Of a stretch of 64,000 nucleotides of DNA, positions 20,401 through 61,583 are shown piece after piece. This DNA comes from Nitrospira sp. KM1 (GTDB lineage Bacteria; Nitrospirota; Nitrospiria; Nitrospirales; Nitrospiraceae): positions 3,782,001 through 3,846,000 of the forward strand of contig NZ_AP022671.1 of assembly GCF_011405515.1 (NCBI RefSeq). Direction: 5' to 3'. Every line of letters starts with the position of its first letter. Position 1 is the first letter of the stretch. The notes beneath the pieces were generated by a model, which was not told the DNA's origin, ran no database searches, and saw only the letters and a list, made by a program, of their open reading frames with translations. Both the position numbers and the translations under genes were made by a program.

Positions 20401-23400
20401 TTGGAACGGAGGCCTCCGACCGCTACCACGGGAAAGGGAGCGACGATCTAATCGCGGGTGGTGGTGGAAACGACCTGCTTCTGGGAGGCTCCGGGGAGGA
20501 TGATCTCAAAGGAGAGGCGGGAGACGATCAGTTGTTCGGAGGAGCAGGCGATGATCATCTGGACGGAGGAATCGGCGATGATGAATTGGGTGGAGGATAT
20601 GGCAACGATACATTGACCGGCGGAGCTGGAAACGATGTCTTGGACGGCGGCGCCGGCGCCGATACCTATGTCTTTAACTTCGGAAATGGACAAGATGTCA
20701 TTCGTGACACAGCAAATATCGGAGGAGATAATCGTCTGTTCTTTGGACCGGGGATCATCTTGTCGGATCTCCAATTCTCCCAAAATTATGGTGGACAAGT
20801 CGGGGTGCCCATCAACGGCGTCCATGTGATCGTTGATGCGATCTATGTCGGGAACACCGGGGATCGCGTTGATCTTCCCAACATTCCAGATGTGACCCCA
20901 GGTCTTCGGACCATCTCGTTCGCAGACGGCCTCACGATCGATCTGTTCGACTATTACGCCGCCAGCCAGATTCAGGAAGATCAGAATCTGACCGCTGTTG
21001 ACGCAGGTGCGACGCTTATAGGCGGAGCTGGAAACGATACTTTGCATGGAGGAGTAGGGAACAATGTGTTGATAGGCGGCGGAGGGAGCAACACTCTGAT
21101 CGGTGGGGCTGGTCCTAACATGTTTTATAGTGCTTCGGCGGCAAATAATACGGTGTTTTTTGGAACTGGTTCAAATGTTCTTGCCATTCCAGCCGGTTCG
21201 AGCAGCAATATTGTGCATGTCTTGGGAACTCCGGCTTCGAACAAGGTCGTGTTTGCCGGGGGCTACCATACCTTTCTTCCGAATCTCACATTTGGCTCGC
21301 TCTTGATCCGATATGGATCTGAAGGAGGCGAGTTGCACATCGAAGGGTTCAACCCGAACGATGCGTATGCAAATCCAGGAATTGGGACGTTCGAATTCAC
21401 TGACCGGACATTGACCTATCAACAATTAATCGATTTGGGTTTCGATGTTTCGGGGACCGAAGGCGATGATCTATTGACCGGGAGCAGCGCGACGGACCGA
21501 ATGAAGGGATTTGGTGGGAACGATACGCTGAGCACCGGTCTGGGAAATGACGTGCTCGAAGGGGGAATCGGAAACGATACTCTCGTGGGCGGGTCCGGCG
21601 ATGACACGTATCTGTTCAACCTCGGCGACGGCGTGGATACGATCGAAGATGCCGCCTTGACGGGTGAAGGCAATCGGATCGTGTTTGGCGCCAGCATTCA
21701 GCTGAGCGATCTGACGCTCACCGAGGATCAGGCTGCACGGACGCTCACCATTCAGGTGGGGAGCGGCGGAACGGATCGGCTGATTCTGACCTCCTTCGAT
21801 CACACGGGAGCGAATGGGTCGCTGGTCGTGGAGACGCTGGAATTTGCGGCCGGCAGCACGGCGAACCTCGCCGAACTCGTTGGTGTCCCGATCAACCATG
21901 CTCCGACTGTCGCCAACCCGCTGGCGGATCAGACGGTTCAGGAAGACACGCCATTCAGTATCGGGGTGCCGGCGGATGTTTTTGCCGATCCCGATGCGGG
22001 CGATCTTTTGACGCTCAGCGCGAGTTTGGTCGACGGGAGCGCGTTGCCCTCTTGGTTGAGCTTCGATGCGAGCACGCGCATGTTTAGCGGGACACCGACC
22101 AACGGTGACGTGGGCAGCTTGGAAGTGAAAGTGAGGGCAACGGATGCCGGGAATTTGAGTGTCTCGGATAGCTTCAGCCTGACAGTAGAAAATGTGAATG
22201 ACGCTCCGACGGTGGCCGATCCGATCGTCGACCAATCGGCACAGACCGGATCGGCCTTCTCCTTCAGGGTGCCGGCGGATGTTTTTAAGGACGTCGATAT
22301 GGGCGATATATTGACCTACAGCGCCACGCTGGCCGACGGCAGCGCTCTGCCGGCCTGGCTGGGCTTCGACACCGGCACAAGGACTTTCAGCGGGACGCCG
22401 GGAAGCAGCGATGCCGGAGTCTTGACTCTCAAAGTCATGGTGACGGATTCAGGGAGCCTGAGCGCCGCTGATGACTTTACACTTACCGTCAGCACTGCTG
22501 ATCAGACTCTGACGGGCACCGCCGGGAATGATGTCCTCACGGGCGGCGTCGGGAACGATCAGCTCTTCGGACTGGCCGGCAACGATACACTTATCGGCGG
22601 GGCAGGCAACGATCTCTTGGATGGTGGACCGGGCGCGGACAACATGCAGGGCGGATCGGGCAACGATACCTACGTGGTCGACAATATCGGAGATGTCGTC
22701 GCCGAGAACGCCAATGAAGGCACGGACGGCGTGCAGAGTGTGATCACCTATACGCTCGGGGCGAACGTGGAGAACCTCACGCTCACCGGGACCGCCAATA
22801 TCGCAGGGACCGGCAGCGCGTTCGACAACGTCCTGATCGGCAACAATGGAAACAATACCTTGACCGGCCTGGCCGGCAACGATCGGCTGGACGGCGGCTC
22901 CGGCAGCGACACGATGATCGGCGGGACCGGAAACGACACCTATGTCGTGAACCAGACCGGCGATGTGGTCACGGAATCGGCGAATCAGGGGATCGATACC
23001 GTCGAAAGCGCCGTGACCTACAACCTGGGTTCCAATGTCGAGAACCTCACCCTGACCGGCACGGCCAACATCAACGGTACTGGAAGTTCGGCCGACAACG
23101 TGCTCATCGGGAACAGGGGCAACAATCAACTCGTCGGCGGCTCGGGGAACGACACCTTGGATGGCGGAGCCGGCAACGATATGCTGCAAGGAGGAAGTGG
23201 GAATGACCGGCTCGTTGGTGGACTCGGCGGCGACGCGCTCACCGGCGGCAGCGGCAATGATGTATTGGACGGCGGTGGCGGGCTCGACATACTCGACGGC
23301 GGTTCTGGTGATGACATTCTCCGAGGCGGCGCAGGAAACGATAACCTGACGGGTGGCAGCGGAGCCGATCAGTTTACGGGAGGAACCGGCAACGACATGT

Positions 23401-23798
23401 TGACCGGCGGGTCCGGCAACGACCTCTACAATTTCGCTCGTGGCGACGGCCAGGATACGATCAGGGACATCGATTCGACATCCGGCAACCAAGACCGCGC
23501 GGTCTTCGGCGCAACGATCAATCCCTTGGATGTGATCATTAGTCGCCAGGCCAATGATCTGCGCCTGGCGGTGTACGGCTCGACCGACCAGGTGACGATT
23601 CAGAATTGGTATGCCGGTGCAACCAACCAGATCGAGACGATCCATGCCGGCAACGGCCAGAGACTGCTCAGCACGCAGGTGGATCAGCTCATCCAGGCAA
23701 TGGCGACCTTTACCACCCAGACGGGCCTCACCTGGGAGCAGGGTCTCGCGCAACAGCCGCAGCAAGTCGAGAGTATTCTTGCCGCCAGCTGGCAGTAG
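14397..23798 (+). CDS. Giant RTX protein with N-terminal lipase-like domain
   Basis: 3133 residues. AAGGAG precedes ATG 14397. Residues 1-400 contain the lipase nucleophile elbow GHSLGGHLA with Ser175, in the setting of class 3 (DUF2974-like) lipases; the Asp and His partners are not certain. Calcium-binding nonapeptide repeats (GGxGxDxLx) start near residue 570 and fill most of the protein in several blocks. They are interspersed with at least six haemolysin-related modules of form DTYxFxxGDGxDTIxD...LxFxDG (about residues 1195-1275, 1340-1430, 1900-1990, 2085-2185, 2400-2490, 3010-3100). Two cadherin-like Ig domains (about 2500-2600 and 2600-2700; APTVANPLADQTV, DAPTVADPIVDQS) precede the final RTX block. 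There is no signal peptide, as expected for export by the adjacent type I system with a C-terminal signal. Confidence 0.9.
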   Translation: MANEISTWFKFAIQQMAAESYLDGINLQDPDAVIERLVDGNNNGQIIPPDQFTGKTRFVDLDGVPNANQITGSAQAFVSRYQIIDHHANDATGFSATLMRDMTTGEYALSFRSLEYQDQAQGGDWERDGQGGAAGEIAGAGFALGQLVSMERYYEGLKNSGKLPMGAALNVTGHSLGGHLATVFTELHSADIQQTTIFNGAGRGLIGGVTTVVTETDRIRQLIDAMDAKFVEFDPTGALMSSGSTANVQTLSWYQPAVIQVTGQFQTTGTASLPGGVMRTDGAFAKITQLFGHATSGVDTEVVANSGVHGPVTPILIEGQPLLEGLNQELELQYGNSHSITLIVDSLALQDLFQTVDLALTQVHMEGIFQAASDATAAVIGQTRVAEGDTLELALDGLRKVFLDAATPPTNFNENAGGFGDLTFRNEFYTHLADVQTQLATTFTGQTFQIGSLVGRPTNDLRAAAEAPGPTSLAYRFALKELTPFVVLGADLATTQALYDRQNQTGELSLVNPETGVGELTPQYLTDRAAFLAEKILVNSNASVLFNTTHFHDKVSEYEITPLPGFTRRQMIFGDGTNETIVGGIGADHFYGGSGDDQLNGLAGNDYLEGNRGDDTLNGGSGADTMLGGSGNDTYIVDHAGDVVREYANSGVDTVQSSVTFTLDSQVENLTLTGTSDIHGTGNELANLIAGNDGVNRLEGRDGADTLRGGLGNDILAGGIGNDLLEGGAGFDTYMYNNGDGLDQIEDSDATGRIVFNGSLLQGGVSTDGGATYRSLDGSTGYVLSGGHLIVNGVLTVNANFQSGQFGIQLRDATEADYNNGLETTFWTFGTADDILGGIGSGNHVAHMGGGNDLAIMRLNVGAGNDQLFGEDGNDQLFGGGFHDRLYGGTGNDLLVGDNADPGTVDGNDYLAGEAGNDLLVGGYGDDLLYGGDGIDVLWGDYDAIYPGKMPDGAPQDDFLDGGDGDDELHGGDGNDVLLGGTGNDFLSGEEGDDFADGGAGDDLILGYIGNDSLAGDSGVDTLYGDQGDDVLDGGDENDTLHGGDGADELYGGAGDDQVFGDGLNNPSQLSAASGSDFLDGGAGNDHLEGGIGDDLLFGGEGNDVLFGQGGADSLFGDAGDDELQGGAGNDLLSGDAGNDRLFGQDGADRLYGGGGHDELAGNEGNDNLIGEAGNDVLEGGHGDDVLEGGSGDDTYIFNLGDSHDTITDTVRAGEGNLILFGPGITLDNLVFTPDPTQHTLTIHAGADDSLTLLGFDLNSFQYGVETLAFDNGSQVPLADQLPLPSGLIEGDDSGNVIQSGSGDDVVYAGAGDDTVDAGAGHDTLIGGWGNDVLTGGAGDDTYVFSRGDGTDTIHDTAAAGESNILMLGGGITLDGLHLGLRSGGGLQVETGAPGDAIVFPLFNRFDALGAHAVDQFQFSDGTTRSYAEILGLGFDIVGTENGEFLNGTSVNDRITGLGGSDSIQGHEGSDTIDAGSGDDVVDAGEGNDIVMGGDGNDTLLGREGHNQILGGPGNDTIFGQGGTDFIDGGTGDDEFIGFSGQYTFAFGNGSGHDVISSANGGTYLIQLTPGVVPADVTVGRTGGGLALSLGGGPDTLSIPAFYQNPSFEVHFADGTAWNATTLHSEAGMTQIGTEGDDVLTGFRGFTDELIGLAGNDTYIINDATDSVVEQPDGGRDLVVSAVDYTLSETLEDLTLSGAKFGTGNALDNVLTGDASANVLSGEAGDDILDGGRLGYSFSPPVTINDDTLIGGAGSDTYLYDGNLGGVTTIIDQSANGDMNTLKLSASSFFASADPLQWFRLRLDGSVLVMRMDFPTWSVVEHTREVRFPDFDPADAYGPHAIDVFDFGEGTTTRTYQQLLDLGIDVYGTNQGEVVAGTSAPNRIHGGAGNDTLVGGPRNDVYLFNRGNGADTIIDTAVPGAMNAIQFGEGLNPGDLEFVRGAEILTIDVGSNGDAVILSNYDPTGQAGSSVVESLIFANGMEMSLDELLNFPGGTEGTDTFLGTEASDRYHGKGSDDLIAGGGGNDLLLGGSGEDDLKGEAGDDQLFGGAGDDHLDGGIGDDELGGGYGNDTLTGGAGNDVLDGGAGADTYVFNFGNGQDVIRDTANIGGDNRLFFGPGIILSDLQFSQNYGGQVGVPINGVHVIVDAIYVGNTGDRVDLPNIPDVTPGLRTISFADGLTIDLFDYYAASQIQEDQNLTAVDAGATLIGGAGNDTLHGGVGNNVLIGGGGSNTLIGGAGPNMFYSASAANNTVFFGTGSNVLAIPAGSSSNIVHVLGTPASNKVVFAGGYHTFLPNLTFGSLLIRYGSEGGELHIEGFNPNDAYANPGIGTFEFTDRTLTYQQLIDLGFDVSGTEGDDLLTGSSATDRMKGFGGNDTLSTGLGNDVLEGGIGNDTLVGGSGDDTYLFNLGDGVDTIEDAALTGEGNRIVFGASIQLSDLTLTEDQAARTLTIQVGSGGTDRLILTSFDHTGANGSLVVETLEFAAGSTANLAELVGVPINHAPTVANPLADQTVQEDTPFSIGVPADVFADPDAGDLLTLSASLVDGSALPSWLSFDASTRMFSGTPTNGDVGSLEVKVRATDAGNLSVSDSFSLTVENVNDAPTVADPIVDQSAQTGSAFSFRVPADVFKDVDMGDILTYSATLADGSALPAWLGFDTGTRTFSGTPGSSDAGVLTLKVMVTDSGSLSAADDFTLTVSTADQTLTGTAGNDVLTGGVGNDQLFGLAGNDTLIGGAGNDLLDGGPGADNMQGGSGNDTYVVDNIGDVVAENANEGTDGVQSVITYTLGANVENLTLTGTANIAGTGSAFDNVLIGNNGNNTLTGLAGNDRLDGGSGSDTMIGGTGNDTYVVNQTGDVVTESANQGIDTVESAVTYNLGSNVENLTLTGTANINGTGSSADNVLIGNRGNNQLVGGSGNDTLDGGAGNDMLQGGSGNDRLVGGLGGDALTGGSGNDVLDGGGGLDILDGGSGDDILRGGAGNDNLTGGSGADQFTGGTGNDMLTGGSGNDLYNFARGDGQDTIRDIDSTSGNQDRAVFGATINPLDVIISRQANDLRLAVYGSTDQVTIQNWYAGATNQIETIHAGNGQRLLSTQVDQLIQAMATFTTQTGLTWEQGLAQQPQQVESILAASWQ

Positions 23799-35597: not shown

Positions 35598-38018
35598 ATG
35601 ATGATACCGTGGCCGTTGAGAATCGGATCATGTGTCATAGCGTTGGCGGTTGCCGGCATACTCTTTGGTCCTGCCGTCTATGCGCAAACCGAGGCCGTCA
35701 AGTTGGACATCCCGCCACAGGACCTGTCGGGAGGGTTATCGGCATTGGCTGCGCAGGCGAATATCCAAGTGTTGTATGCATCGGATCTCGTCGCCGGAAA
35801 AACTACGAAGGGTGTGGTCGGTACGGTCACCCCCGACGAAGCGATGCAGCAATTATTGGACGGGACAGGGCTTCAGCACACGTTCACCGATTCGAAGACG
35901 GTGACGATTCAGCGTAGGATTCCAGCCGGCGCAGCGCTTGGCGGAGCCGCGGTTGCGGCGGAAGCCGCATCGAAGCCGGTCAAGGTTCCGGAGATCGTCG
36001 TGAAAGACGTGCGTGAGCGGGATGATTTCAATAACTACGTGGCGGAGGATTCCAACACCGCGACTCGTACGGATACGCCCATGCTTCAAGTGCCGCAATC
36101 CGTCGAAGTCGTGACGCAGAAAGTCATGCAGGACCAGCGTGCCATTCGTGTGGAGCAGGCGCTCCGGAACGTCAGCGGCGTGGCGCTTGGCGATGTCGGG
36201 CAGTCGGGTATCGCAGCCGATGTCGCGTATTGCCGTGGATTCCCGTGCGGATATTTCAAGAATTATCTCCGGAACGAAGATCAAAACCAAGCGTTGACGT
36301 ATAGAGATGTTTCCAACATGCAGCGGCTTGAAGTGTTGAAGGGGCCGGCCTCGGTCCTGTACGGGCGGAGCGAGCCGGGCGGGATCATCAACATCATCAC
36401 CAAACAGCCGCAGGCGGACCGCTACGCTTCGATCGACCAGGTCTTTGGCAGCTACAACTATTATCGTACGATGATCGATGTGACCGGGCCTCTCGATGAA
36501 GGCAAGAAGGTGCTCTTTCGCGTCAACGGCGCCTACGAGAATACGGGAAGCTTCCGCGACTTCGTTCACGGACAACGCTATTTCATCGCCCCGGTCTTCT
36601 TGTGGCAAGCAGGCAACAATACGACGCTGACATTCGAAGGGGAATACATCAGGGATCGCCGCACCCCGGACTTCGGTGTTCCCGCCATCGGCGATCGGCC
36701 GGTCAACATGGCGAAGAGCACGTTTTATGGAGAGGCGTTCGATACGCTCGCGTTCGAAGAGGGTCGGGCAGGCGCGGTCCTCACGCATCGATTCAGCGAT
36801 CAGTGGCGCATCGAGAGCCGGCTGAGAGCGGATATCTCGAAAGCGTCGGCGTACAGGACCTTTGCGCTTAGCGTGCTGCCAGGCAATCAGGACATGGCGC
36901 GGTTCTTTTTCAACCAACTGGCGAAGATTCAGAGTTACTATTGGCGCAACGACGTCATCGGCAAAGTGTCGACCGGATCGATCAAGCATGAAATCTTGAC
37001 CGGCGTAGAGATAGGCCGGCAATATGCCTCGTATGATCAAGGGTTCGGGTTTTTCGATACCATCAGCATCTATAATCCTGTCCATGGCCTGACTCCCGGA
37101 CCGGATCCGGGGAAAACCCCTGTCAGCAGGAATTTTGCCAATGCCCTCGGCGGGTATGTGCAGGATCAGATTTCGGTGCTTGATAATTTTCAGGTGCTGA
37201 TTGGCGCCCGCGGGGACTACTTCTACCAACATACCGACCTGCCGGGGTCTGAGGCGAAGGCTGAAAACTATGGCTTCAGCCCGCGAATCGGCGTGAGTTA
37301 TCAGCCTATTCCCCAGGCATCCGTCTATGCCAACGTCACGCGTTCGTTCCAACCGAACTTCGGCCCATTTACCGTTGCCGACAATCAATTTAAGCCGACG
37401 ACCGCCACGCAGTACGAAGCCGGGGTCAAGACCGTGATCGTGCCCGATCGCCTGACCTCAACCCTTGCGATCTATCGCATTCTGAAAAAAGACGTGCTGG
37501 CCGTCAATCCGGCGGATCCGACCGGCTTTTCCTTCGTCCAGACCGGCGCACAGCGCAGCCAGGGAGTCGAATTCGATGTCACGGCCCAACTTGCGCAGGG
37601 ATGGAGAGCCATCGCCACATATGCATACACGGACGCTCGAATCGCCGCCGATACGTCCATTGCAGTTGGAAATCGGATTCCGCTGGTCGCACGGCACACT
37701 GGCAGTCTCTGGACGACCTATGATTTCCAAGTTGCCCCGCTGAAAGGATTTGGTGTCGGCGGCGGTATGTTTGCCGTCGGCGAGCGGGCTGGAGACTTGG
37801 CCAATACCTTTGAGTTGCCCGGCTATGTGAGGGCCGACGCTGCCGTCTATTACCGTAAACCGGAAATCTTTCCTCATACCAATCTCATCGCACAGCTGAA
37901 CGTGCAGAATCTTTTAAATCAGAATTATTTCTATAGCGGTGGACAGAGCCAGACCTCGGCGGCGTATTGGGGCGCGCCGGTCACCTTTTTCGGCTCTATC
38001 AAGTTGGAGTTTTATTGA
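35598..38018 (+). CDS. TonB-dependent siderophore-type receptor with STN domain (type A, cassette 1)
   Basis: 806 residues. The signal peptide ends near AVYAQ. An STN signalling domain (about 33-105, KLDIPPQDLSGGLSALAAQAN) is followed by a linker with the TonB-box-like KPVKVPEIVVKDV, the plug (QVPQSVEVVTQKVMQDQRAIR, RLEVLKGPASVLYGRSEPGGIINI) and a 22-strand-type barrel ending FGSIKLEFY. The plug contains CRGFPC with Cys212 and Cys217, shared only with the receptor at 49473. The STN domain means it signals through FecR. GAAGGGA lies upstream of ATG 35598. Substrate unknown; probably a metal chelate. Confidence 0.92.
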   Translation: MMIPWPLRIGSCVIALAVAGILFGPAVYAQTEAVKLDIPPQDLSGGLSALAAQANIQVLYASDLVAGKTTKGVVGTVTPDEAMQQLLDGTGLQHTFTDSKTVTIQRRIPAGAALGGAAVAAEAASKPVKVPEIVVKDVRERDDFNNYVAEDSNTATRTDTPMLQVPQSVEVVTQKVMQDQRAIRVEQALRNVSGVALGDVGQSGIAADVAYCRGFPCGYFKNYLRNEDQNQALTYRDVSNMQRLEVLKGPASVLYGRSEPGGIINIITKQPQADRYASIDQVFGSYNYYRTMIDVTGPLDEGKKVLFRVNGAYENTGSFRDFVHGQRYFIAPVFLWQAGNNTTLTFEGEYIRDRRTPDFGVPAIGDRPVNMAKSTFYGEAFDTLAFEEGRAGAVLTHRFSDQWRIESRLRADISKASAYRTFALSVLPGNQDMARFFFNQLAKIQSYYWRNDVIGKVSTGSIKHEILTGVEIGRQYASYDQGFGFFDTISIYNPVHGLTPGPDPGKTPVSRNFANALGGYVQDQISVLDNFQVLIGARGDYFYQHTDLPGSEAKAENYGFSPRIGVSYQPIPQASVYANVTRSFQPNFGPFTVADNQFKPTTATQYEAGVKTVIVPDRLTSTLAIYRILKKDVLAVNPADPTGFSFVQTGAQRSQGVEFDVTAQLAQGWRAIATYAYTDARIAADTSIAVGNRIPLVARHTGSLWTTYDFQVAPLKGFGVGGGMFAVGERAGDLANTFELPGYVRADAAVYYRKPEIFPHTNLIAQLNVQNLLNQNYFYSGGQSQTSAAYWGAPVTFFGSIKLEFY

Positions 38019-38034
38019 GGTATGAATAGACCGT

Positions 38035-39183
38035 ATGACGATCGATTCCTTTAAGCGCTGGTACGCCATTCATAAGTGGACCAGCCTGGTGAGCACGCTC
38101 TTTTTGTTGATGCTCTGTCTCACCGGTCTGCCCCTCGTGTTCAGCGACGAAGTGCGCTTGTGGCTCGGCGAGTCGGTCGAGCCCCCCGAGTATGTAACGG
38201 ACACGGCGCCCGTCGTGCTCGATGCATTGGTCAAGGATGCACAAGCGAAGCGGCCGTCAGACGTCGTCAAATTCCTTACGCGCGATGATGACGGTCCGGC
38301 TTGGTTTGTCTCGATGGGAGAGACTGCCACGGCGCAGGATAACAGCGCACTGTTCATGTATGACTCCCGCACCGGGGCCTTCCTCCACGCCATTCCTCCG
38401 GACGAAGGGGTGGTGAACTTTCTGTTCAAACTGCACGTCGAGATGCTGGCCGGTCTTCCGGGAACGTTGTTTCTCGGTGTAATGGGCCTCCTACTCGTCG
38501 CGTCCGTGGTGTCAGGCATTGTGGTCTACGCGCCGTTTATGAGGAAATTGCCGTTCGGGGCGGTGCGGCGGGAACGTAGCGCCAGGCTCGCATGGCTCGA
38601 CCTGCACAATCTTCTCGGAATCGTCACGGTGATGTGGGTGCTGGTCGTGGGCGTGACGGGAGTCATCAACACACTGGACCGGCCGCTGCTGGGTTACTGG
38701 CAGATGACCGAGATTGCCGGGATGCTGGCGCCGTGGAAGGACAAGCCCGCACCGGCAACGATACGGCCAGTGGATGACGCGGTGCGCGCTGCGGAAACGG
38801 CAGCTCCGGACATGGCCGTTCGCTTCATCGCATTCCCGGGAACACCGTTCGCGAGTCCGTATCACTACATGGTGTTCATGCGCGGCCAGGATCCGTTGAC
38901 GGCGCGGCTGCTGAAACCGATGCTGGTGGACGCGGAGACGGGCCGGATGAGCGACAGCAGAAATTTGCCGTGGTATCTGACAGCATTGCTGGTTTCCCAG
39001 CCGCTGCATTTTGGAGATTACGGGGGCATGCCGTTGAAGATCCTATGGGCCGGCTTGGACGTGATCACCATCGTCGTCTTGGGCAGCGGCCTCTATTTGT
39101 GGTGGAAAAAACGGCGGCAGACTGTCGAGGATGTGATCTTTGCCGATGCCTATCGGGGACTAGCGGCCGGAGGAAGGTCCTGA
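38035..39183 (+). CDS. PepSY-associated TM protein (cassette 1)
   Basis: 382 residues in the inner membrane. It has four TM segments: SLVSTLFLLMLCLTGLPLVF at 15-34, LFLGVMGLLLVASVVSGIVVYAPF near 145-170, LGIVTVMWVLVVGVTGVIN near 195-215, and a final one near 340-362 (ILWAGLDVITIVVLGSGLYLWW). PepSY-type loops lie between them, and the paired His residues on TM1 and TM2 (HKWT, HVEM) could bind haem. Such proteins occur with TonB-dependent receptors and are thought to act as reductases or chelate processors. The gene starts 17 bases after the receptor and resembles the gene at 51899. Confidence 0.88.
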   Translation: MTIDSFKRWYAIHKWTSLVSTLFLLMLCLTGLPLVFSDEVRLWLGESVEPPEYVTDTAPVVLDALVKDAQAKRPSDVVKFLTRDDDGPAWFVSMGETATAQDNSALFMYDSRTGAFLHAIPPDEGVVNFLFKLHVEMLAGLPGTLFLGVMGLLLVASVVSGIVVYAPFMRKLPFGAVRRERSARLAWLDLHNLLGIVTVMWVLVVGVTGVINTLDRPLLGYWQMTEIAGMLAPWKDKPAPATIRPVDDAVRAAETAAPDMAVRFIAFPGTPFASPYHYMVFMRGQDPLTARLLKPMLVDAETGRMSDSRNLPWYLTALLVSQPLHFGDYGGMPLKILWAGLDVITIVVLGSGLYLWWKKRRQTVEDVIFADAYRGLAAGGRS

Positions 39184-39481
39184 ATGGATGGGGCGCCTCA
39201 AACCCCATTCGTGATGTCAAAGCCAAAAACGGTGCTTGCCCGGCTGCATGCTCAGGGAAGTCTCGAGGTCAAACATTTTATTCCGTACGGCATACGATAT
39301 TTCCTGACCAGGTCTCTCCTTCGCCGTGACCCGGATATTCCTGGAATTTTCTGCAGGACAAACTCGTCCCACTTCATCCGGATCGATGCCGCTGGCCTGC
39401 GTGCCGTTCGTTCCTGCAAGCGGATTCCGCTCTGTCTGGGTGGCTTATAACGGTGGAGTTGAACTCTCTGCCCGTGTCTAG
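39184..39481 (+). pseudogene. Remnant of a SAM-dependent methyltransferase (internal deletion)
   Basis: It starts where the intact paralogue at 53048 starts relative to its PepSY gene. The first part (VLARLHAQGSLEVKHFIPYG...RRDPDIP) matches the paralogue's VLAKLQAQGDREFKYLAAHG...RRKPDIH; it then continues in another frame (NFLQDKLVPLHPD). The C-terminal end (GFRSVWVAYNGGVELSARV, stop 39479-39481) matches the paralogue's GFRSMLWPYKGGVELSVKV. About 400 bases of the middle, including the SAM-binding motif, are missing, so no enzyme can be made. Confidence 0.8.
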
Positions 39482-47737: not shown

Positions 47738-48247
47738 ATGGCTGCTCAGGACTACGAACAATTGTTTCATTCCGCCGGGGACGATTTGAGGCGGTTTCTC
47801 TCGCGCCGCATCACCTGTCCGCATGCCGTGTCCGACATGATGCAGGAGGCGTTTCTAAAACTCATGGGCGCTCAACCGGCTACGGACATTAAGGACCCGC
47901 GCGCGTATCTCTTTAGAATCGCTGCCAATTTGGCCATCAATCATGGAACAAGACGACGTGATGTGGCACCGCCGTCCGCGGTGAGCAACTCGACTGAGGC
48001 TCTGCCGGAGGTGTCGGATGAACGCACGCCGGAACGGGTCGTGGAGGGTAATCGCCAGCTTCGACGAGTCATGGACGCGATTGAATCTCTGCCCGAACGC
48101 TGTAAGGAAGTGTTTATTCTCTATCGATTTCATAGCATGAGCCAAACGGAGATCGCCGAGCAGCTTGGGATTTCCGTCAGCATGGTGGAAAAGCATGTGA
48201 TTCGGGCCATGCGGTATTGTCGCGACGCCAGGGATCAGGCAGACTGA
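47738..48247 (+). CDS. ECF sigma factor, FecI-like (cassette 3)
   Basis: 169 residues. Region 2: LFHSAGDDLRRFLSRRITCPHAVSDMMQEAFLKLMGAQPA, PRAYLFRIAANLAINHGTRRRD. Region 4: LPERCKEVFILYRFHSMSQTEIAEQLGISVSMVEKHVIRAM. It is the closest in pattern to the cassette 1 and 4 sigma factors (MVEKHVIRAMRYC). The fecR start lies 10 bases after its stop. Confidence 0.9.
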   Translation: MAAQDYEQLFHSAGDDLRRFLSRRITCPHAVSDMMQEAFLKLMGAQPATDIKDPRAYLFRIAANLAINHGTRRRDVAPPSAVSNSTEALPEVSDERTPERVVEGNRQLRRVMDAIESLPERCKEVFILYRFHSMSQTEIAEQLGISVSMVEKHVIRAMRYCRDARDQAD

Positions 48248-48257
48248 GGGAGATCGC

Positions 48258-49292
48258 GTGGATTGTGTCGAAGGGGTAAGGGGCTTTTTTATGAATCCGC
48301 CTGAAAAGGGCCGTACCGGATCGACGAGTTCGCCGGACGTGTACGATGAGGCCGTGCGTTGGCTCATGGCGTTGAAGCGCCCTTCCGAATCTTTGCATGA
48401 TCGGCATGCATTCGAACGATGGCTCGCTGCGGACCCCGAACATGCACGCGCCTATGCCCGTTGCCGTGCCGATTGGGAAGGAATGGAACCGCTGGCCGTG
48501 GTCTATGGTCCTCAGGCCGACGGGGAGCGTACGGCAACGGGTTCATTCAGCCGTTCAACCGGTTGGAAGTGGATGACGGCCATGGCGGCCATGCTGGCCG
48601 CATTAGTCACCATCGGATGGTTCACCGCGTCATGGTTCCTGCCCACCTTCGAGGTGACGGCGCAAACACAGGCGGCGGAACGAAAGACAATGCAGTTAGC
48701 GGACGGGTCGAACATCGAACTCAACGGGCGTTCGCACGTGCGCGTGAAGTATTTCCGCGGCCGGCGCGTGGCTCATCTCGAGCAAGGGGAAGCGATATTC
48801 GATGTGACCCCCGATTCGTCCCGCCCGTTCACCGTGGAAGCAGGCATCGGCAGGGTTCGCGTGATCGGGACGTCGTTTCAGGTGACCCGTGAAGCGGATC
48901 ATCTGGCCGTGGCGGTATTGAGAGGTCGCGTCCAGGTCGATCGCGTGGGCACGCCGAAGACAACCGTCGTGCTTTCAGCCGGTCAGGGTACCGACGTGAC
49001 AGCAGCCGGCATTGATGAGGTCAAGGAGGTGACGGCTGCAGCGGTGGGATCTTGGACTCGAAAAGTCCTGGTGTTTGACCATGCTCCGCTTCGGGATGTT
49101 GTTTCGGCCATTCAGCGCCAGTATGCAGGCACCATCCAATTAGATGCTGAGGCCGCCGAAATTCCGCTGACGGCGGTTGTGCAGTTTGCCGATATCGATA
49201 CGACTCTCACGGCCCTCTCCTCAAGCCTTCCCGTCCAAGTCGACCATCCTGCGCCGGCGCGTTGGTATATCCGACGGAACGGCAAATCATAG
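48258..49292 (+). CDS. FecR-family sigma regulator (cassette 3)
   Basis: 344 residues from GTG 48258 (GGGAG upstream). DUF4880 part (AVRWLMALKRPSESLHDRHAFERWLAADPEH), TM near 105-127 (WMTAMAAMLAALVTIGWFTAS), FecR domain with ERKTMQLADGSNIELNGRS, QGEAIFDVTPDSSRPFTVEAG and VIGTSFQVTRE, then the C-terminal segment (PLTAVVQFADIDTTLTALSSSLPV). No unusual features. Confidence 0.9.
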   Translation: MDCVEGVRGFFMNPPEKGRTGSTSSPDVYDEAVRWLMALKRPSESLHDRHAFERWLAADPEHARAYARCRADWEGMEPLAVVYGPQADGERTATGSFSRSTGWKWMTAMAAMLAALVTIGWFTASWFLPTFEVTAQTQAAERKTMQLADGSNIELNGRSHVRVKYFRGRRVAHLEQGEAIFDVTPDSSRPFTVEAGIGRVRVIGTSFQVTREADHLAVAVLRGRVQVDRVGTPKTTVVLSAGQGTDVTAAGIDEVKEVTAAAVGSWTRKVLVFDHAPLRDVVSAIQRQYAGTIQLDAEAAEIPLTAVVQFADIDTTLTALSSSLPVQVDHPAPARWYIRRNGKS

Positions 49293-49428: not shown

Positions 49429-49472
49429 TATGGGATATGGCCATCAAGATGTCTTTGAAGGAGGGAGGTCCC

Positions 49473-51884
49473 GTGCTACAGCAGTGCGTTGGGTTTATCA
49501 AACGTGTCAGGGCGCCTTGGCTGATCATGACAGGCATTGCATTGGTCCCCGCGCTGTGGAGTACGGGTGCCGGCGCGCAAGAACATGCTTTCAGCATTGG
49601 CCCTCAACCGCTGAACAAGGCATTGATCGAATATGCCACGCAGGCGGGAGTGTCGGTGAATGCCGATCCCGAAATCCTGGAAGGCAGGCAGACGATGGGG
49701 GTGACCGGCCAGTTCAGTAACGAGGCCGCGCTCCAACAGCTGCTGCAGGGAACAGGATTGCAGTTGCAGCAGGCTGGCGCGAATACCTTTACGATCCTGC
49801 CGGCAGCGGTCGTGCCCATGAAAACCCCGCACGGGAGTGCCGAAAAACCTGTCAAAGTCCCCGAGATCCTCGTCAAAGAGGTTCGAGCCCGTGATGAGAG
49901 CAACAGCTATGTCGCGGAAGAGGCGAGTACGGCGACGAGGACGGATACGCCTCTTATCCAGGTTCCCCAGTCCATCGAAGTCGTGACGCGGAAGGTGATG
50001 GACGATCAGCGCGCGATCAGGGTGGAACAGGCATTGCGCAACGTGAGCGGCGTCAACATCGGTTATACCGCGCAAGGACGCGCGGCGAACGACACGATGT
50101 TTTGCCGTGGATTTCCCTGCGCCTTCTTCAAGGACAACATGCGCAATGACGACTTCGTGCAGGCGTTCGCGTTTCGCGACGTCGCGAACATCCAGCGGCT
50201 CGAAGTGCTCAAAGGGCCGGCGTCGGTCCTGTACGGCAGGAGCGAGCCGGGCGGCATCATCAATATCATGACGAAGCAGCCGCAGGCGGATCGGTATGCT
50301 TCGATCGAGCAGATCGTCGGCAGCTATAACTACTATCGCACGATGCTGGACGCCACGGGTCCGCTCGACGAAGGGAAGAAGTTTCTCTACCGCATCAACG
50401 GCGCCTATGAAAATACCGAGAGCTTTCGAGACCTCGTGCACGGGCAGCGCTACTTCGTTTCGCCAGTCTTTCTCTGGAAGGCGGGCAATAATACGTCGGT
50501 GACGATAGAAGGCGAGTACATCCGAGACCGCATGTCTTCCGATGCCGGGTTGCCGGCGATCGGCCGGAGCGTGGCCCCATTGCCGAGGAGCCGCTTTCTT
50601 GGAGAACCGTTTGATACTTCAGGAGTAGAGGAGGGACGTGTCAGCCTGCGTGTGAACCACCGGTTCAGCGATGCCTGGCGCATCGAGAGCCAGATCCGGA
50701 TAGATGAAAGTACGATCAGCGGCCATTTCACGAACCCGATCGCAGTCCAGGCCAACAATACGACCCTCACCCGTAACGTGCTTGATCAACTCGCGGATAC
50801 GTCCAGTTACTATTGGCGCAACGACGTCATCGGCAAGGTGGCAACCGGCTCCATCAAGCATGAAATTCTGACCGGCGTGGAACTGGGCAGGCAGAGCTCC
50901 TCGCTGGATCGAGCGCAGGCGCCGTTTGGCTCGATCAATATCTATAATCCGATCTACAACCAATTTCTGGTGCCCCCGCTGAATCTGACGAGATTTGCCC
51001 GGTCCTTCGCGAATGCCGTCGGCGGCTACGTGCAGGACCAGATCGCGCTCACGGATAATCTGTTTGTGCTCGCGGGCGCGCGAGGAGATTACTTCTACCA
51101 ACACAGCACGGTCGCCGGAGGGGATACGAAAGCCGAAAACTGGGGCTTTAGCCCCCGTATCGGTGTCACGTATCAGCCGCTTCCAGCCGTAGCGTTTTAT
51201 GCGAACGTCACGCGCTCGTTTCAGCCGACGTTCGGCCCGTTTGCCGCGGTGTCCAACTTGTACTTGCCGACGACCGGCACGCAGTACGAGGCGGGCATGA
51301 AAACCGATATTGTGCCCGGACGTTTAACCTCCACGATTGCGGTGTACCGCATCGACAAAAAGAACGTGCTGGCGGTCGATCCCACCAATTTCTTACTGCA
51401 GATTCAGACCGGCGGCCAACGCAGTCAAGGTGTGGAGCTCGACTTGGCGGCCCAACTCACCGATGCGTGGAAAGTCATTGCCACGTACGCATATACGGAT
51501 GCGCGTGTCACCGCCGACACGACCATTCAAGTGGGGAACCGGTTACCGCTGATTTCCCGCAACACAGCCAGCTTCTGGACGACGTACGATTTCCTCGAGG
51601 GACCGCTCAAAGGATTCGGAACTGGAGCCGGCGTATTCATCGCGGGAGAACGAGCCGGCGATATCAACAACAGTTTCGAGTTGCCGGGATATGTGCGGAC
51701 CGACGCGGCCTTGTATTATCGCAAGAACGAGATCTTCGACCGCACGAATCTGGTGGCTCAACTGAACTTCCAGAACCTCCTCAATCAGGACTATTACTAC
51801 GGAGGGTTTCAAACCCGAGGGTCGGCTGGTTTCCCGGGAGCTCCGCTCAGCGTGTTAGGATCGATCAAATTTGAATTTTTTTAG
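49473..51884 (+). CDS. TonB-dependent siderophore-type receptor with STN domain (type A, cassette 3)
   Basis: About 803 residues from GTG 49473, which is preceded by GGAGGGAGG; frames from ATG 49437 are longer but lack a site. Signal peptide to TGAGAQEHAF; STN (FSIGPQPLNKALIEYATQAGVSV); KPVKVPEILVKEV TonB-box-like linker; plug (QVPQSIEVVTRKVMDDQRAIR, RLEVLKGPASVLYGRSEPGGIINI) with the Cys211/Cys216 pair in CRGFPC; barrel ending LGSIKFEFF. It shares with the receptor at 35598 the stretches QPQADRYASI, VGSYNYYRTM and YYWRNDVIGK. Confidence 0.92.
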   Translation: MLQQCVGFIKRVRAPWLIMTGIALVPALWSTGAGAQEHAFSIGPQPLNKALIEYATQAGVSVNADPEILEGRQTMGVTGQFSNEAALQQLLQGTGLQLQQAGANTFTILPAAVVPMKTPHGSAEKPVKVPEILVKEVRARDESNSYVAEEASTATRTDTPLIQVPQSIEVVTRKVMDDQRAIRVEQALRNVSGVNIGYTAQGRAANDTMFCRGFPCAFFKDNMRNDDFVQAFAFRDVANIQRLEVLKGPASVLYGRSEPGGIINIMTKQPQADRYASIEQIVGSYNYYRTMLDATGPLDEGKKFLYRINGAYENTESFRDLVHGQRYFVSPVFLWKAGNNTSVTIEGEYIRDRMSSDAGLPAIGRSVAPLPRSRFLGEPFDTSGVEEGRVSLRVNHRFSDAWRIESQIRIDESTISGHFTNPIAVQANNTTLTRNVLDQLADTSSYYWRNDVIGKVATGSIKHEILTGVELGRQSSSLDRAQAPFGSINIYNPIYNQFLVPPLNLTRFARSFANAVGGYVQDQIALTDNLFVLAGARGDYFYQHSTVAGGDTKAENWGFSPRIGVTYQPLPAVAFYANVTRSFQPTFGPFAAVSNLYLPTTGTQYEAGMKTDIVPGRLTSTIAVYRIDKKNVLAVDPTNFLLQIQTGGQRSQGVELDLAAQLTDAWKVIATYAYTDARVTADTTIQVGNRLPLISRNTASFWTTYDFLEGPLKGFGTGAGVFIAGERAGDINNSFELPGYVRTDAALYYRKNEIFDRTNLVAQLNFQNLLNQDYYYGGFQTRGSAGFPGAPLSVLGSIKFEFF

Positions 51885-51898
51885 ACCGGAAGTTCTCC

Positions 51899-53044
51899 AT
51901 GCTCACCGTCTCTGCACTGAAGCGATGGTATTTCATTCATAAATGGACCAGTCTGATTTGTACCGTCTTTCTTCTGCTCCTCTGCTTGACCGGATTACCG
52001 ATTGTCTTTCGTGATGAACTGTCGGTTTGGTCGGGAGAAGCCGTCGAGCCGCCCGAGCATGTGACGGCGAGCGTGCCAATGAGTCTGGACACGATGCTTG
52101 CGGATGCGCGAGCGAGACGTCCGGGCGAGCAGGTGAATGTCCTGTCGCTCGACGACGAACAACCGGCTTGGTTCGTGTCGATGGGGGCGAGCCCTGCCAC
52201 GCCGCGAGGCACGGCGTTATTCATGTACGATTCACGCACGGGCGAGTTCTTGCACGACCGTCCTCTCGAGGATGGCATAATCAACTTCATCCTGAAATTG
52301 CATGTCGAGATGCTGGCCGGCTTGCCGGGCACGCTCTTCCTGGGGCTCATGGGGATCGTATTTCTGTTGTCGGTCGTCTCCGGCATCGTGGTGTATGGGC
52401 CGTTCATGCGAAAGCTGCCGTTTGGAGCAATCAGAAGGGATGGGAGCAGTCGATTGACGTGGCTCGACCTGCATAACCTATTGGGGATCGTGACGGTCTC
52501 GTGGGTCATGGTCGTGGGAGCCACGGGCGTCATCAATGCGTTGGAGGTTCCGTTGCTCAGTTATTGGCAGCGGACCGAATTGCGCGATATGGTTCTATCG
52601 TGGAAAAACAAGCCTGCTTCAGGTGTCACGAAGCCGGTGGATGACATCGTCGCGACGGCACAGTCCGCCGCCCCTGATATGATCGTCCGGTTCGTAGCAT
52701 TTCCAGGCAGCCGCTTCTCGACGCCGCACCATTTCATGGTATTCATGCGCGGCCAGACTCCATTGACGGCGAGACTGCTCACGCCGCTGCTCATCGACGC
52801 CGAGACGGCCCGGGTCAGCGATGCCCGCTCCCTTCCCTGGTATCTCACGATGTTGCGCGTGTCCCAACCATTGCACTTTGGGGATTACGGAGGACTGCCG
52901 TTGAAGATCGTCTGGGCGGTCCTCGATCTGATTACGATTCTCGTACTGTTCAGCGGACTGTTTCTTTGGTGGAAGAAACGCCAGTCCGCAGACGATCTGG
53001 CGCTCGCAGAAGCCTTTCGGCAACTGTCGCTTCAGGAGCGTTAG
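51899..53044 (+). CDS. PepSY-associated TM protein (cassette 3)
   Basis: 381 residues, closely paralogous to the gene at 38035: the same order HKWTSLICTVFLLLLCLTGLPIVFRDE, LKLHVEMLAGLPGTLFLGLMGIVFLLSVVSGIVVYGPF, LTWLDLHNLLGIVTVSWVMVVGATGVIN and a last TM with LFLWWKKR. It starts 15 bases after the receptor stop and is followed within 4 bases by the intact methyltransferase. Same proposed role as the paralogue. Confidence 0.88.
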   Translation: MLTVSALKRWYFIHKWTSLICTVFLLLLCLTGLPIVFRDELSVWSGEAVEPPEHVTASVPMSLDTMLADARARRPGEQVNVLSLDDEQPAWFVSMGASPATPRGTALFMYDSRTGEFLHDRPLEDGIINFILKLHVEMLAGLPGTLFLGLMGIVFLLSVVSGIVVYGPFMRKLPFGAIRRDGSSRLTWLDLHNLLGIVTVSWVMVVGATGVINALEVPLLSYWQRTELRDMVLSWKNKPASGVTKPVDDIVATAQSAAPDMIVRFVAFPGSRFSTPHHFMVFMRGQTPLTARLLTPLLIDAETARVSDARSLPWYLTMLRVSQPLHFGDYGGLPLKIVWAVLDLITILVLFSGLFLWWKKRQSADDLALAEAFRQLSLQER

Positions 53045-53047
53045 CCG

Positions 53048-53743
53048 ATGCCCGAGGTCATTCCCAACCCGCTCCATGATGGACGGGCCGAAGCGGTCCT
53101 CGCGAAATTGCAGGCGCAGGGCGACCGTGAGTTCAAATATCTCGCGGCGCATGGGCTGGCCGGTATGATTCGTCGGTGGATGACCCGGCGCAAGCCCGAC
53201 ATCCATTGGGATTTTCTCCGTGACAAACTGATTCCGCTGCATCCGGACAAATGCCGGCTGGCCTATGTCCTGTGCCGTTCGTTGAATGCTCAACGAGTCG
53301 TAGAATTCGGGACATCATTCGGCGTATCGACGATTTATCTGGCGGCTGCGGTACGCGACAATGCGCAGTCTGGCAGGCGGGGGATCGTCATTGGAACGGA
53401 AATCGAGCCGACGAAGGTGGCAGCGGCCCGCGGCAATCTTGCCGAAGCCGGATTAGCGGATTTCGTCGATATCAGAGAGGGCGACGCGCTTGAGACATTG
53501 AAGGATATCGGTGGCCCGGGCGATTTTCTCCTCATGGATAGCTGGACGAGATATGCCAGGGGCATCATCGAGATCGTCGCTCCCCAACTGCGGCCCGGTG
53601 CCATTGTGATGGCCGATAATGTCGGGCAGTTGCCCGGAGCCTACCGTGCGTATACCGATTACATCCGCAATCCCTCCAATGGGTTCCGCTCGATGCTCTG
53701 GCCTTATAAGGGAGGGGTCGAACTCTCGGTCAAGGTGGACTAG
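53048..53743 (+). CDS. Class I SAM-dependent methyltransferase
   Basis: 231 residues. The Rossmann-type SAM motif is VVEFGTSFGVSTIYLAAAV near residues 83-101, followed by the acidic end of strand 2 in GTEIEPTKVAAARGNLAEAGL, then VDIREGDALETL, DFLLMDSW and VMADNVGQLPGAYRAY. This is the order of O-methyltransferase-like enzymes acting on small molecules. The gene follows a PepSY gene by 4 bases and ends the type A cassette; the matching gene of the first cassette is a deletion remnant. A role in modifying an imported or secreted chelator is an inference. Confidence 0.87.
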   Translation: MPEVIPNPLHDGRAEAVLAKLQAQGDREFKYLAAHGLAGMIRRWMTRRKPDIHWDFLRDKLIPLHPDKCRLAYVLCRSLNAQRVVEFGTSFGVSTIYLAAAVRDNAQSGRRGIVIGTEIEPTKVAAARGNLAEAGLADFVDIREGDALETLKDIGGPGDFLLMDSWTRYARGIIEIVAPQLRPGAIVMADNVGQLPGAYRAYTDYIRNPSNGFRSMLWPYKGGVELSVKVD

Positions 53744-54372: not shown

Positions 54373-54669
54373 CTAGGCAGAAACCCGCTCCCACTCGCGC
54401 GCGCGACGTACCAGCGCAGCTTGGTGGGCAGGCCAGTCGTGCAGCGTGGCCGGATCAAAATCGGCTCCGTTTGGCCATACGAGTGTGCGTACCTCGGGGT
54501 CAATACGGACTTGATTGAAGATCTCTTCATTCCGCAGCGGTCCGAGCAGCTCCCCGGCGAGCACAGGCCGGAAATTAATTACCTGTTCCGTCCGGTCCTC
54601 AAACTGTACACGCAAGGTATAGGGTCCGACAATCTCGACGGCTTGAACGTGATGAATCGGGTGGTGCAT
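54373..54669 (-). CDS. DUF2442 family protein
   Basis: 98 residues from ATG 54669; a TTG at 54696 would add nine. Reads MHHPIHHVQAVEIVGPYTLRVQFEDRTEQVINFRPVL, then DPEVRTLVWPNGADFDPATLH, the standard DUF2442 pattern with the conserved WPNGADF. It lies 10 bases after the DUF4160 gene on the minus strand. This pair recurs in many genomes and is often suggested to be a toxin-antitoxin-like unit, though its function is not established. Confidence 0.8.
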   Translation of the reverse strand: MHHPIHHVQAVEIVGPYTLRVQFEDRTEQVINFRPVLAGELLGPLRNEEIFNQVRIDPEVRTLVWPNGADFDPATLHDWPAHQAALVRRAREWERVSA

Positions 54670-54679
54670 GCGCAGCTTC

Positions 54680-54949
54680 TTACGCGAGAGGTGCAATAGG
54701 CAGGGCTTTCTGTCCGCCTTGTAGCCTGTTCCAATCGATCTTCAGTTCCTCCTGATGCAGTTCGGCCCATGCCTCGACGAGCCGCTGCTGGCGTTGAGGG
54801 AGAGAACCCGCTATCAGTTCCACCGGCTCGATCCCGTACACGGCGACATGCTCTTGATAATAGGCATGAAAGTGCGGTGTGTGATGCCCAGTGTGAACTT
54901 CGACATACATGCGAATGATGATCCCAAAGAATCGGCTGAGTTCAGGCAC
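54680..54949 (-). CDS. DUF4160 family protein
   Basis: 89 residues from ATG 54949: MPELSRFFGIIIRMYVEVHT, then HTPHFHAYYQEHVAVYGI, then GSLPQRQQRLVEAWAELHQEEL. This is the DUF4160 pattern, with HFHA as the conserved core. It is read before the DUF2442 gene in one short operon. The pair lies between two copies of a repeated palindromic element. Confidence 0.82.
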   Translation of the reverse strand: MPELSRFFGIIIRMYVEVHTGHHTPHFHAYYQEHVAVYGIEPVELIAGSLPQRQQRLVEAWAELHQEELKIDWNRLQGGQKALPIAPLA

Positions 54950-59980: not shown

Positions 59981-61201
59981 ATGCGCGCTATAGGTGTCGT
60001 CATTCACCGTTGGGCAGGGCTGTTGACTGCCCTGTTCCTGCTCGTTTCGGGGCTGACCGGTGCGGTGATCTCCTGGGACCACGAGATTGACGAATGGCTC
60101 AACGACCATCTCTTTGACGTCTCCACGACAGGCCGCGCGATCCCCTATCTTGAGTTGGCCGCGCGCATCGAGGCCGCAGACCAGCGGGTGCGCGTCACCA
60201 ACATCCCACTGCAAACAGAGTCCGGTCATTCCCTATTGTTCGGCGTCCAACCGCGCGTGGACTCTCAAACCGAGAAACTGTACAAGGTCGGGTACAACCA
60301 GGTCTTTCTCGATCCGGTCACGGGGAAAGAACTCGGCCGCCGCGAGTGGGGTGCGGTTGCCGTGGACCGCGAACATCTCATGGCATTTCTCTACCGCCTG
60401 CATTACACGCTGCACATTCCCAACTTTGCCGGGCAGAATCGCTGGGGCCAGTGGTTCATGGGTGGCGTCGCCATCATCTGGCTGCTCGATTGCTTTGTCG
60501 CGCTGGCCATTTCGTTTCCAGACTGGCAACGCTGGCGGCGATCCTTTGTGGTTCGTCACGGGAGCCGCTATCAATTGAATTTCGATTTCCATCGGGCAGG
60601 CGGATTGTGGACCTGGGGCATTCTGTTGATTCTGGCCGTAAGCGCGGTGTATTTGAATCTCGCGCGGGAAATCGTTCGCCCCGCCGTGGCAGCGGTGACG
60701 ACGGTGACACCGAATCCATTTGACCTTCGGAAGCAGCGTCCACTCAATCAGCCGATCGAGCCAACCATTGACTATGGGACGGTCATCACCAAGGCCGAGC
60801 GGGAGGCCAAACAGAAAGGCTGGCGGGAACCGATCGGGGGAGTGTCCTACAATGCCCGTTATGGGATCTACCAGGTGAGATTCTTTCAGCCTGAAAACGA
60901 TCACGGGTCGGGAGGGTTTGGGGTACGAAGACTCTACTTCGATGGTTCGGACGGCGCCTATCTGGGTGAGCATATTCCCGGCAGCGGTACGGCAGGCGAC
61001 ATATTTCTTCAGCTTCAATTTCCGCTCCACAGCGGCCGCATTGCCGGCATCCCTGGCCGCATTTTCATTTCCCTGATGGGTTTGGTCGTGGCAGGTTTGT
61101 CGGTCACCGGCGTCGTCATCTGGCTCAAACGGCACGGCAGGCTGGCCATAGTGAGCGCAGCGCTTAGTAAGACTTCGCCCCGCCCGCTCGTCCAGCGGTA
61201 G
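59981..61201 (+). CDS. PepSY domain-containing TM protein (cassette 4)
   Basis: 406 residues. TM1 near 6-30 (VVIHRWAGLLTALFLLVSGLTGAVISW) with His9; then a PepSY-type loop; TM2 near 155-175 (GQWFMGGVAIIWLLDCFVALAISF); TM3 near 205-225 (FHRAGGLWTWGILLILAVSAVYLN); C-terminal TM near 365-388 (IFISLMGLVVAGLSVTGVVIWLKR). The length and pattern fit the siderophore-utilisation PepSY family, and it differs from the cassette 1 and 3 type. It sits in the usual place behind the receptor. Confidence 0.87.
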   Translation: MRAIGVVIHRWAGLLTALFLLVSGLTGAVISWDHEIDEWLNDHLFDVSTTGRAIPYLELAARIEAADQRVRVTNIPLQTESGHSLLFGVQPRVDSQTEKLYKVGYNQVFLDPVTGKELGRREWGAVAVDREHLMAFLYRLHYTLHIPNFAGQNRWGQWFMGGVAIIWLLDCFVALAISFPDWQRWRRSFVVRHGSRYQLNFDFHRAGGLWTWGILLILAVSAVYLNLAREIVRPAVAAVTTVTPNPFDLRKQRPLNQPIEPTIDYGTVITKAEREAKQKGWREPIGGVSYNARYGIYQVRFFQPENDHGSGGFGVRRLYFDGSDGAYLGEHIPGSGTAGDIFLQLQFPLHSGRIAGIPGRIFISLMGLVVAGLSVTGVVIWLKRHGRLAIVSAALSKTSPRPLVQR

Positions 61202-61247: not shown

Positions 61248-61583
61248 ATGATCCGGACCAAACAGATACTTCTCTCGTTTCTCCCGTTTCTAATGGTCGC
61301 CGGTCTGGTTGGCTGTACAACGACGCAGGCAGATGTGGAGCAGGCCGCCGATCAGCATTCCCAAACGGCTTCGCAGCGGAACCCTTGCGAGCTGCCAAAG
61401 ACCGAGCGGACCTATGTTGAGCCTTGTACGTCTTTCACCTCACGCAACCCTGATACTCCAATCAAGGACATCCCCGGCTCCGTTCAGGTCATCAATCGGG
61501 ACTTGATCGAGGATCAACGGGCCTTGCGTATCGGTGATGCCCTTCGCAATGTCAGCGGTGTGCAAGGCGGTGGAGGCCGGTGA
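61248..61583 (+). CDS. Lipoprotein fused to a fragment of receptor plug
   Basis: 111 residues. A lipoprotein signal (MIRTKQILLSFLPFLMVAGLVGC) with lipobox LVGC at Cys23 is followed by a short linker and then TPIKDIPGSVQVINRDLIEDQRALRIGDALRNVSGVQ. This closely follows the start of the plug in these receptors (TPIRDTPQSIQVITRKVIEEQRAIRLDTALQNVSGI). It stops after GGGGR, so no barrel can form. It may be a decayed receptor start fused to a lipoprotein gene, or a small decoy or signalling protein. The sigma gene of cassette 5 lies 94 bases on. Confidence 0.6.
   Translation: MIRTKQILLSFLPFLMVAGLVGCTTTQADVEQAADQHSQTASQRNPCELPKTERTYVEPCTSFTSRNPDTPIKDIPGSVQVINRDLIEDQRALRIGDALRNVSGVQGGGGR

Follow-up and report, generated by a model that had tools for sequence, protein, structure and literature searches.

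A hiuAB-like receptor-PepSY cassette with an added methyltransferase gene in Nitrospira sp. KM1

Described receptor-PepSY systems and the focal cassette

In Caulobacter crescentus, the operon hiuABC serves the uptake of hydroxamate xenosiderophores. Ferrioxamine use involves all three products, namely the receptor HiuA, the PepSY reductase HiuB and the membrane protein HiuC of 61 residues; the products of hiuA and hiuB suffice for the use of ferrichrome, and hiuABC is reported to be Fur-regulated (PMC12424826, PMC13001220). A siderophore receptor also stands beside a PepSY_TM reductase in FoxA-FoxB of Pseudomonas aeruginosa (7ABW) and in FhuA-FhuB of Burkholderia cenocepacia (PMC10866019), and CrtA-CrpH of Bordetella is a receptor plus a PepSY_TM protein (PMC12914433, PMC13038864). 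A methyltransferase is mentioned neither in the papers on hiuABC (PMC12424826, PMC13001220) nor in those on CrtA-CrpH (PMC12914433, PMC13038864), and none is reported for FoxA-FoxB or FhuA-FhuB in the available part of PMC10866019. In the literature searched, we found no description of a siderophore operon combining PepSY with a methyltransferase. Iron-induced class I methyltransferases are listed for Porphyromonas and Prevotella (PMC10434189).

We analyzed a window of 64,000 nucleotides, the whole stretch of DNA under study, which comprises bases 3782001-3846000 of the 4.51-Mb single-contig genome of Nitrospira sp. KM1. Family searches revealed a row of five genes, all on the plus strand. The row is led by a FecI-like ECF sigma factor (47738-48247; Sigma70_r2 and r4_2 over cut-off), followed by a FecR-type anti-sigma regulator (48258-49292; FecR 73.6 bits, with DUF4880 and FecR_C) and a TonB-dependent siderophore receptor with an N-terminal STN signalling domain (49437-51884), which occupies a HiuA/FhuA-like position. 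The fourth gene encodes a PepSY_TM inner-membrane protein, a HiuB/FoxB-like predicted ferri-siderophore reductase (51899-53044; PF03929 192.5 bits, cut-off 28.8), and the fifth a class I SAM-dependent, Mg-type O-methyltransferase, hereafter MT (53048-53743; Methyltransf_24 52.9 bits, cut-off 26.3; Methyltransf_3 27.0, cut-off 22.0). The receptor gene lies immediately 5' of the PepSY_TM gene with a gap of 14 bases, a trait of the hiuABC type, and 3 bases separate the PepSY_TM gene from MT. The receptor has STN, plug and barrel regions and scored 345 bits on TIGR01783 (cut-off 223.5); its best sub-models included FhuA and FoxA, every one of them under cut-off. With ECF sigma factor, FecR and STN-bearing receptor in a single row, the cassette has the make-up of a putative surface-signalling system of the FecI-FecR-FecA type.

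The cassette resembles hiuABC in the order of receptor and PepSY/PiuB-type reductase, in the four-histidine, FoxB-like character of the PepSY protein, and in having sister cassettes in Nitrospira and Proteobacteria with a protein of the size (59-71 versus 61 residues) and place of HiuC. It differs in being led by ECF/FecR, in lacking a hiuC-like gene of its own, and in the added MT, which comes third in Nitrospira and after the HiuC-like gene in Proteobacteria. The likeness to FoxA-FoxB extends to the fold and the histidines of the reductase, although FoxB and the focal PepSY protein are 17-18% identical in a fold alignment. CrtA-CrpH shares the pairing of receptor and PepSY_TM protein but is copper-regulated, with cruR.

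The original prediction had placed receptor, PepSY protein and methyltransferase in one row. That row is real, but its coordinates began at the PepSY gene and omitted the receptor, the ECF sigma factor and FecR. The locus had also been put forward as a possible undescribed chelate-processing system. The receptor-PepSY part is of a known kind, already described in FoxB and hiuABC; the new part is the MT, added to an operon of the hiuAB(C) type, repeatedly recruited and at least once decayed. Downstream of MT, on the minus strand, lie two short genes (54373-54949) that by eye have the appearance of a DUF2442/DUF4160 pair.

The PepSY protein and the HiuC-like gene

With a structure model of moderate confidence (pLDDT 75), the focal PepSY protein had FoxB (7abw) as its sole significant fold match (E 9.8e-12, TM-score 0.59). 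Four histidines, H14, H135, H192 and H326, were invariant in all nine PepSY sequences compared, distant paralogues included. Such histidines are named in published work as the haem ligands of FoxB, and those of the focal protein are candidate haem ligands on both faces of the membrane. By analogy, we infer a ferric reductase of the HiuB/FoxB kind. The earlier idea that a chelate is imported and then reduced or released in the membrane is thus supported by family, fold, invariant histidines and gene neighbourhood, but such a process has already been described for FoxB and hiuABC.

We built an HMM-oriented tree of 49 PepSY rows, with L146 left out and HiuB and CrpH not among the rows. The focal protein fell in a clade of 30 rows (SH-aLRT 99), 24 of which have a gene for a HiuC-like protein of about 60 residues in the operon, usually directly behind the PepSY gene. 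Among the other 19 rows, many of them from the same genomes, the sole HiuC-like neighbour was that of cassette 2 of the window. The HiuC-like proteins are 59-71 residues long and of membrane character, and a Pfam scan of them gave zero matches over cut-off; they are likened to HiuC by their length, gene position, gene overlap and membrane character. Eight relatives with a HiuC-like gene were found on plasmids, in Azospirillum, Comamonas, Brevundimonas, Methylosinus, Sphingobium, Sphingorhabdus and Novosphingobium. Along the same tree, the presence of MT switches at least three times.

The only HiuC-like gene of the KM1 genome (46192-46380, plus strand; 62 residues, profile E 1e-25) lies outside the focal cassette, within 61 bases downstream of the PepSY gene in cassette 2, whose PepSY protein belongs to a different clade, one otherwise without a HiuC-like gene; this copy probably moved there from a type A cassette.

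Where MT and the HiuC-like gene occur together, their order varies. It is receptor, PepSY, HiuC-like, MT in Pollutimonas, Pigmentiphaga and SZAS-10; in these three Proteobacteria the PepSY and HiuC-like genes overlap by 4 bases, and the HiuC-like gene and MT by 8, 8 and 1. Recognition of the HiuC-like protein was weak (profile E 0.0096 in Pollutimonas and 0.027 in Pigmentiphaga). In G306, a Nitrospiraceae genome, the order is receptor, PepSY, MT, HiuC-like. The first sister cassettes had hinted that the HiuC-like gene and MT exclude each other, which we rejected because both are present in G306, SZAS-10, Pollutimonas and Pigmentiphaga. The MT cassettes of the window and of Nitrospira UBC2 have no HiuC-like gene, and each of these genomes has exactly one elsewhere nearby. 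The focal cassette was therefore classed as a hiuAB plus MT variant and not as a member of hiuABC. In UBC2, a frameshifted PepSY pseudogene (L026 3138-3916) lies upstream of the lone HiuC-like gene.

Recurrence and loss of the methyltransferase gene

Failure of the gene order to recur beyond the window would, by the original prediction, have counted against it; this did not happen. We found the receptor-PepSY-MT order in five other sampled genomes, two from Nitrospiraceae, the family of KM1 itself, and three from Proteobacteria. Full-length close homologues of MT were present in 3 of 395 Nitrospirota genomes, the window included, and in all three the gene stands directly behind a receptor and a PepSY gene. 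Identity to the focal triad was 72% for the receptor, 72% for PepSY and 84% for MT in UBC2, and 62%, 62% and 72% in G306. In a scan of bacterial genomes, 4 of 80 MT relatives stood in the same order, those of UBC2, Pollutimonas bauzanensis, Pigmentiphaga humi and SZAS-10. The last, a proteobacterial metagenome genome, has a complete ECF-FecR-receptor-PepSY row with MT, and its operon is followed by frames that by eye resemble ExbB, Fur and a monooxygenase of the haem-degrading type.

The triad is rare: the family sampled around Pollutimonas has it in 2 of 250 genomes, and the 76 genomes sampled around SZAS-10 yielded a single operon. MT is absent from most sister receptor-PepSY cassettes (L032-L035, L040, L041 and the second cassette of the UBC2 tandem). 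On a rough estimate, with the genome taken to have some 4,500 genes of which about ten are PepSY_TM, an enzyme of this kind would land behind a PepSY gene by chance roughly two times in a thousand trials.

In UBC2 (L026 6954-18600) the regulators do not go with MT: the pair closest to the focal sigma/FecR genes (73% and 55%) stands at the head of the cassette next door, which has no MT, and the MT cassette has another pair, 34% and 33% like the focal one. From the sequences, regulators and transport genes appear to have been reshuffled among cassettes. In SZAS-10 (L157), a second methyltransferase-like gene, of a different kind that by eye resembles the leucine carboxyl methyltransferase type, lies behind a receptor next to another PepSY gene of the HiuB clade.

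The order had also been thought to recur in cassette 1 of the window. There the receptor (35598-38018, plus strand; 61% identical to the focal receptor) and the PepSY_TM protein (38035-39183, plus strand; 65% identical to the focal PepSY) are intact, but MT survives only as a decayed remnant with an internal deletion plus frameshifts (39184-39481, plus strand), so that cassette 1 does not count as another intact triad. The remnant begins immediately after the PepSY stop codon. It keeps the first ~79 residues, the first third of the gene, across three broken frames, and ends with the C-terminal ~19 residues (GFRSVWVAYNGGVELSARV) and the stop; ~130 residues in between are missing. Its alignment exceeded those of all 300 dinucleotide shuffles (z 5.8 to 7.8), and its boundaries were set by the translated ends, as alignment with lenient gap costs overstates the length. 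Judged from this remnant, cassette 1 formerly had the receptor-PepSY-MT order and then lost MT. Elsewhere in the genome there is no further close and intact MT gene; the next match is 29% identical over about half the length.

The methyltransferase and its possible role

The model of MT was confident (pLDDT 91) and had a Rossmann fold with a SAM site. In a profile comparison with solved structures, DesAOMT (8c9v; E 7e-25, 90.9 bits) came first, then Rv0187 and bacterial COMTs, with TrmR (YrrM) far weaker at 38.1 bits. Foldseek placed TrmR (5zw3) on top, with DesAOMT and Rv0187 nearly level. DesAOMT is reported to methylate catechols (PMC11143566) and, according to a report cited there, some non-catechols as well. 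As the nearest solved relative methylates catechols, MT is of the right class for the methylation of a chelator.

MT shares its fold, SAM site and metal-ligand pattern D...DN with DesAOMT (8C9V), SafC, NiCOMT and StrAOMT. The pattern, D164, D190 and N191, was kept in 37 of 37 relatives, and from the alignment we take it to correspond to D141, D169 and N170 of COMT. MT differs from the COMT-type enzymes in having extra N-terminal helices and Thr167 in place of the general base Lys144 of COMT; lysine occurs at this position in 0 of 37 relatives, and we did not assign MT as a COMT. DesAOMT likewise has no lysine at the aligned position yet methylates catechols, and a COMT-like function may therefore be compatible with the missing lysine. 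Nor did we assign MT as a TrmR-type tRNA methyltransferase, given the difference in profile scores.

Between species the dN/dS of MT was about 0.06-0.09, with dS saturated, which places the gene under purifying selection. Elsewhere, relatives of MT have TetR regulators as neighbours, together with genes for SDRs or an alkene reductase, and others, by eye, are flanked by an acyl-CoA dehydrogenase gene on one side and a TetR gene on the other; by these neighbourhoods the wider family is one of general small-molecule methyltransferases. In an MT tree with SZAS-10, the triad MTs as one clade were rejected (p-AU 6e-10), ruling out a single origin of the triad, and one origin for the MTs of Nitrospira and the two Alcaligenaceae was not rejected (p 0.48). 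Linkage to the PepSY clade therefore arose at least twice, and separate recruitment argues for a function shared by MT and that clade.

Our main reading, to which we assign a probability of about 0.45, is an ECF/FecR-controlled operon of the hiuAB(C)/foxAB kind for the uptake of xenosiderophores, plus an MT that modifies the ligand or a co-imported compound. The genes, their order and families, the invariant residues, the purifying selection on MT, the recurrence with at least two recruitments and the decayed copy are observed; from these we infer siderophore uptake, reduction and, above all, the substrate of methylation. As in hiuABC and FoxB, the receptor would bring the ferric chelate of a foreign siderophore into the periplasm. 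The PepSY_TM protein, with two membrane haems on its four histidines, would then reduce the bound Fe(III), and Fe(II) would be released in the periplasm. MT would most likely modify the organic part, whether this is the ligand set free (phenolic, catecholic or hydroxamate), one of its fragments or an aromatic compound imported alongside, and the modified compound would no longer chelate or harm the cell. The more specific proposal that MT O-methylates the released siderophore ligand, so that iron is stripped and the chelator then disabled, by an enzyme recruited at least twice, in Nitrospirota and in Proteobacteria, seems to us unlikely. That a metallophore is inactivated or modified by methylation, as first suggested, fits the enzyme class and the repeated linkage, but stays conjectural. 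In Hiu/Fox-type uptake, MT is a candidate for the step that deals with the foreign chelator after periplasmic removal of its iron. If this role holds, it would be the first function for a widespread, unassigned family of O-methyltransferases.

Several observations weigh against the main reading. Most relatives of MT lie in non-uptake contexts with TetR or acyl-CoA dehydrogenase neighbours, the triad is rare even around Pollutimonas (2 of 250), no hiuC-like gene belongs to the focal cassette itself, and none of the 37 relatives has the general-base lysine of COMT. Location is a further difficulty. MT has no visible export signal and looks cytoplasmic, and release of the HiuB/FoxB type is periplasmic. 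The sole FecCD permease of the genome lies in a B12 operon with BtuF-like and BtuB-like genes and two cobalamin riboswitches. In G306, too, there is one FecCD permease, flanked on both sides by a cobalamin riboswitch. The search for FecCD-type permeases thus gave none of the siderophore type in the Nitrospira genome, and FeoB_C (the C-terminal domain of FeoB) was not found in three Nitrospira genomes. Together, a seemingly cytoplasmic MT, periplasmic release and the lack of such a permease raise a difficulty for methylation of the chelator. The apparent lack of a siderophore ABC permease points to another entry route or to another target of MT, either of which would inform the iron supply of Nitrospira.

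Because of this difficulty, we keep as a strong rival, if on the unlikely side of even, an operon that takes up siderophores as proposed and whose MT acts on an unrelated intracellular target, such as a quinone, a metabolite with a phenol group or, as in the case of TrmR, tRNA; MT would then be in the operon only to be co-expressed under an iron or siderophore signal. Close MT relatives without uptake genes, beside TetR, SDR, alkene reductase and acyl-CoA dehydrogenase genes, are consistent with this, as are the cytoplasmic appearance of MT, the missing FecCD permease and the top Foldseek rank of TrmR 5zw3, though there the next matches, DesAOMT included, were nearly tied. By profile, however, DesAOMT beats TrmR by 90.9 to 38.1 bits, and the recruitments, at least two, were all to one PepSY clade, in genomes most of which (of six) hold PepSY proteins of several other clades.

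We consider it improbable that MT is a protective enzyme which methylates a toxic cargo, such as a phenolic or sideromycin-like antibiotic, once this has come in through the same receptor. Sideromycins enter cells by receptors of this class, and the available part of PMC10866019 puts forward periplasmic release as a protection. The TetR regulators beside many MT relatives recall drug- and xenobiotic-response genes, which often have such neighbours, and patchy presence with loss would suit a locally useful defence. A route into the cytoplasm is missing here too, as it is for the main reading.

Quite improbable, in our estimate, is copper or another metal in place of iron. The model for this is CrtA-CrpH of Bordetella, in which a receptor is likewise paired with a PepSY_TM protein whose histidines are FoxB-like (PMC13038864). 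The focal PepSY clade, however, carries the HiuC-like gene, as the ferri-hydroxamate operon does, the receptor is over cut-off on a siderophore-receptor model, and the SZAS-10 operon is followed by the ExbB-, Fur- and haem-degrading monooxygenase-like frames seen by eye. Last, MT as a functionless passenger of the operon is highly improbable: most sister cassettes do without it and the copy in cassette 1 is decaying, but the low dN/dS (about 0.06-0.09), invariant active-site residues, overlapping genes in Proteobacteria and at least two recruitments all speak against it.

The focal cassette is one of many. From 28 to 64 kb of the window and on through G000:C1:3846001-3942867, ECF-FecR-receptor(-PepSY) cassettes follow one another in a run of more than 100 kb, which holds eight of the genome's ten PepSY_TM genes. 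In cassette 4, the PepSY protein (59981-61201) has an N-terminus that by eye looks more FoxB-like than that of the focal protein, with a HEIDEWLN motif in common with 7abw. Between its gene and the next sigma factor sits a receptor plug fragment (61410-61571, plus strand; E about 1e-8 to 1e-10, 46-54% identity with the four receptors), the remnant of a lost cassette. Nearer the start of the window, a plus-strand gene (14397-23798) encodes a protein of 3133 residues that has Ig-like domains and 39 stretches of RTX nonapeptides; 3' of it lie a peptidase-C39-type ABC exporter, an HlyD and an outer-membrane factor-like gene, which makes the region a type I secretion locus serving this giant RTX protein.
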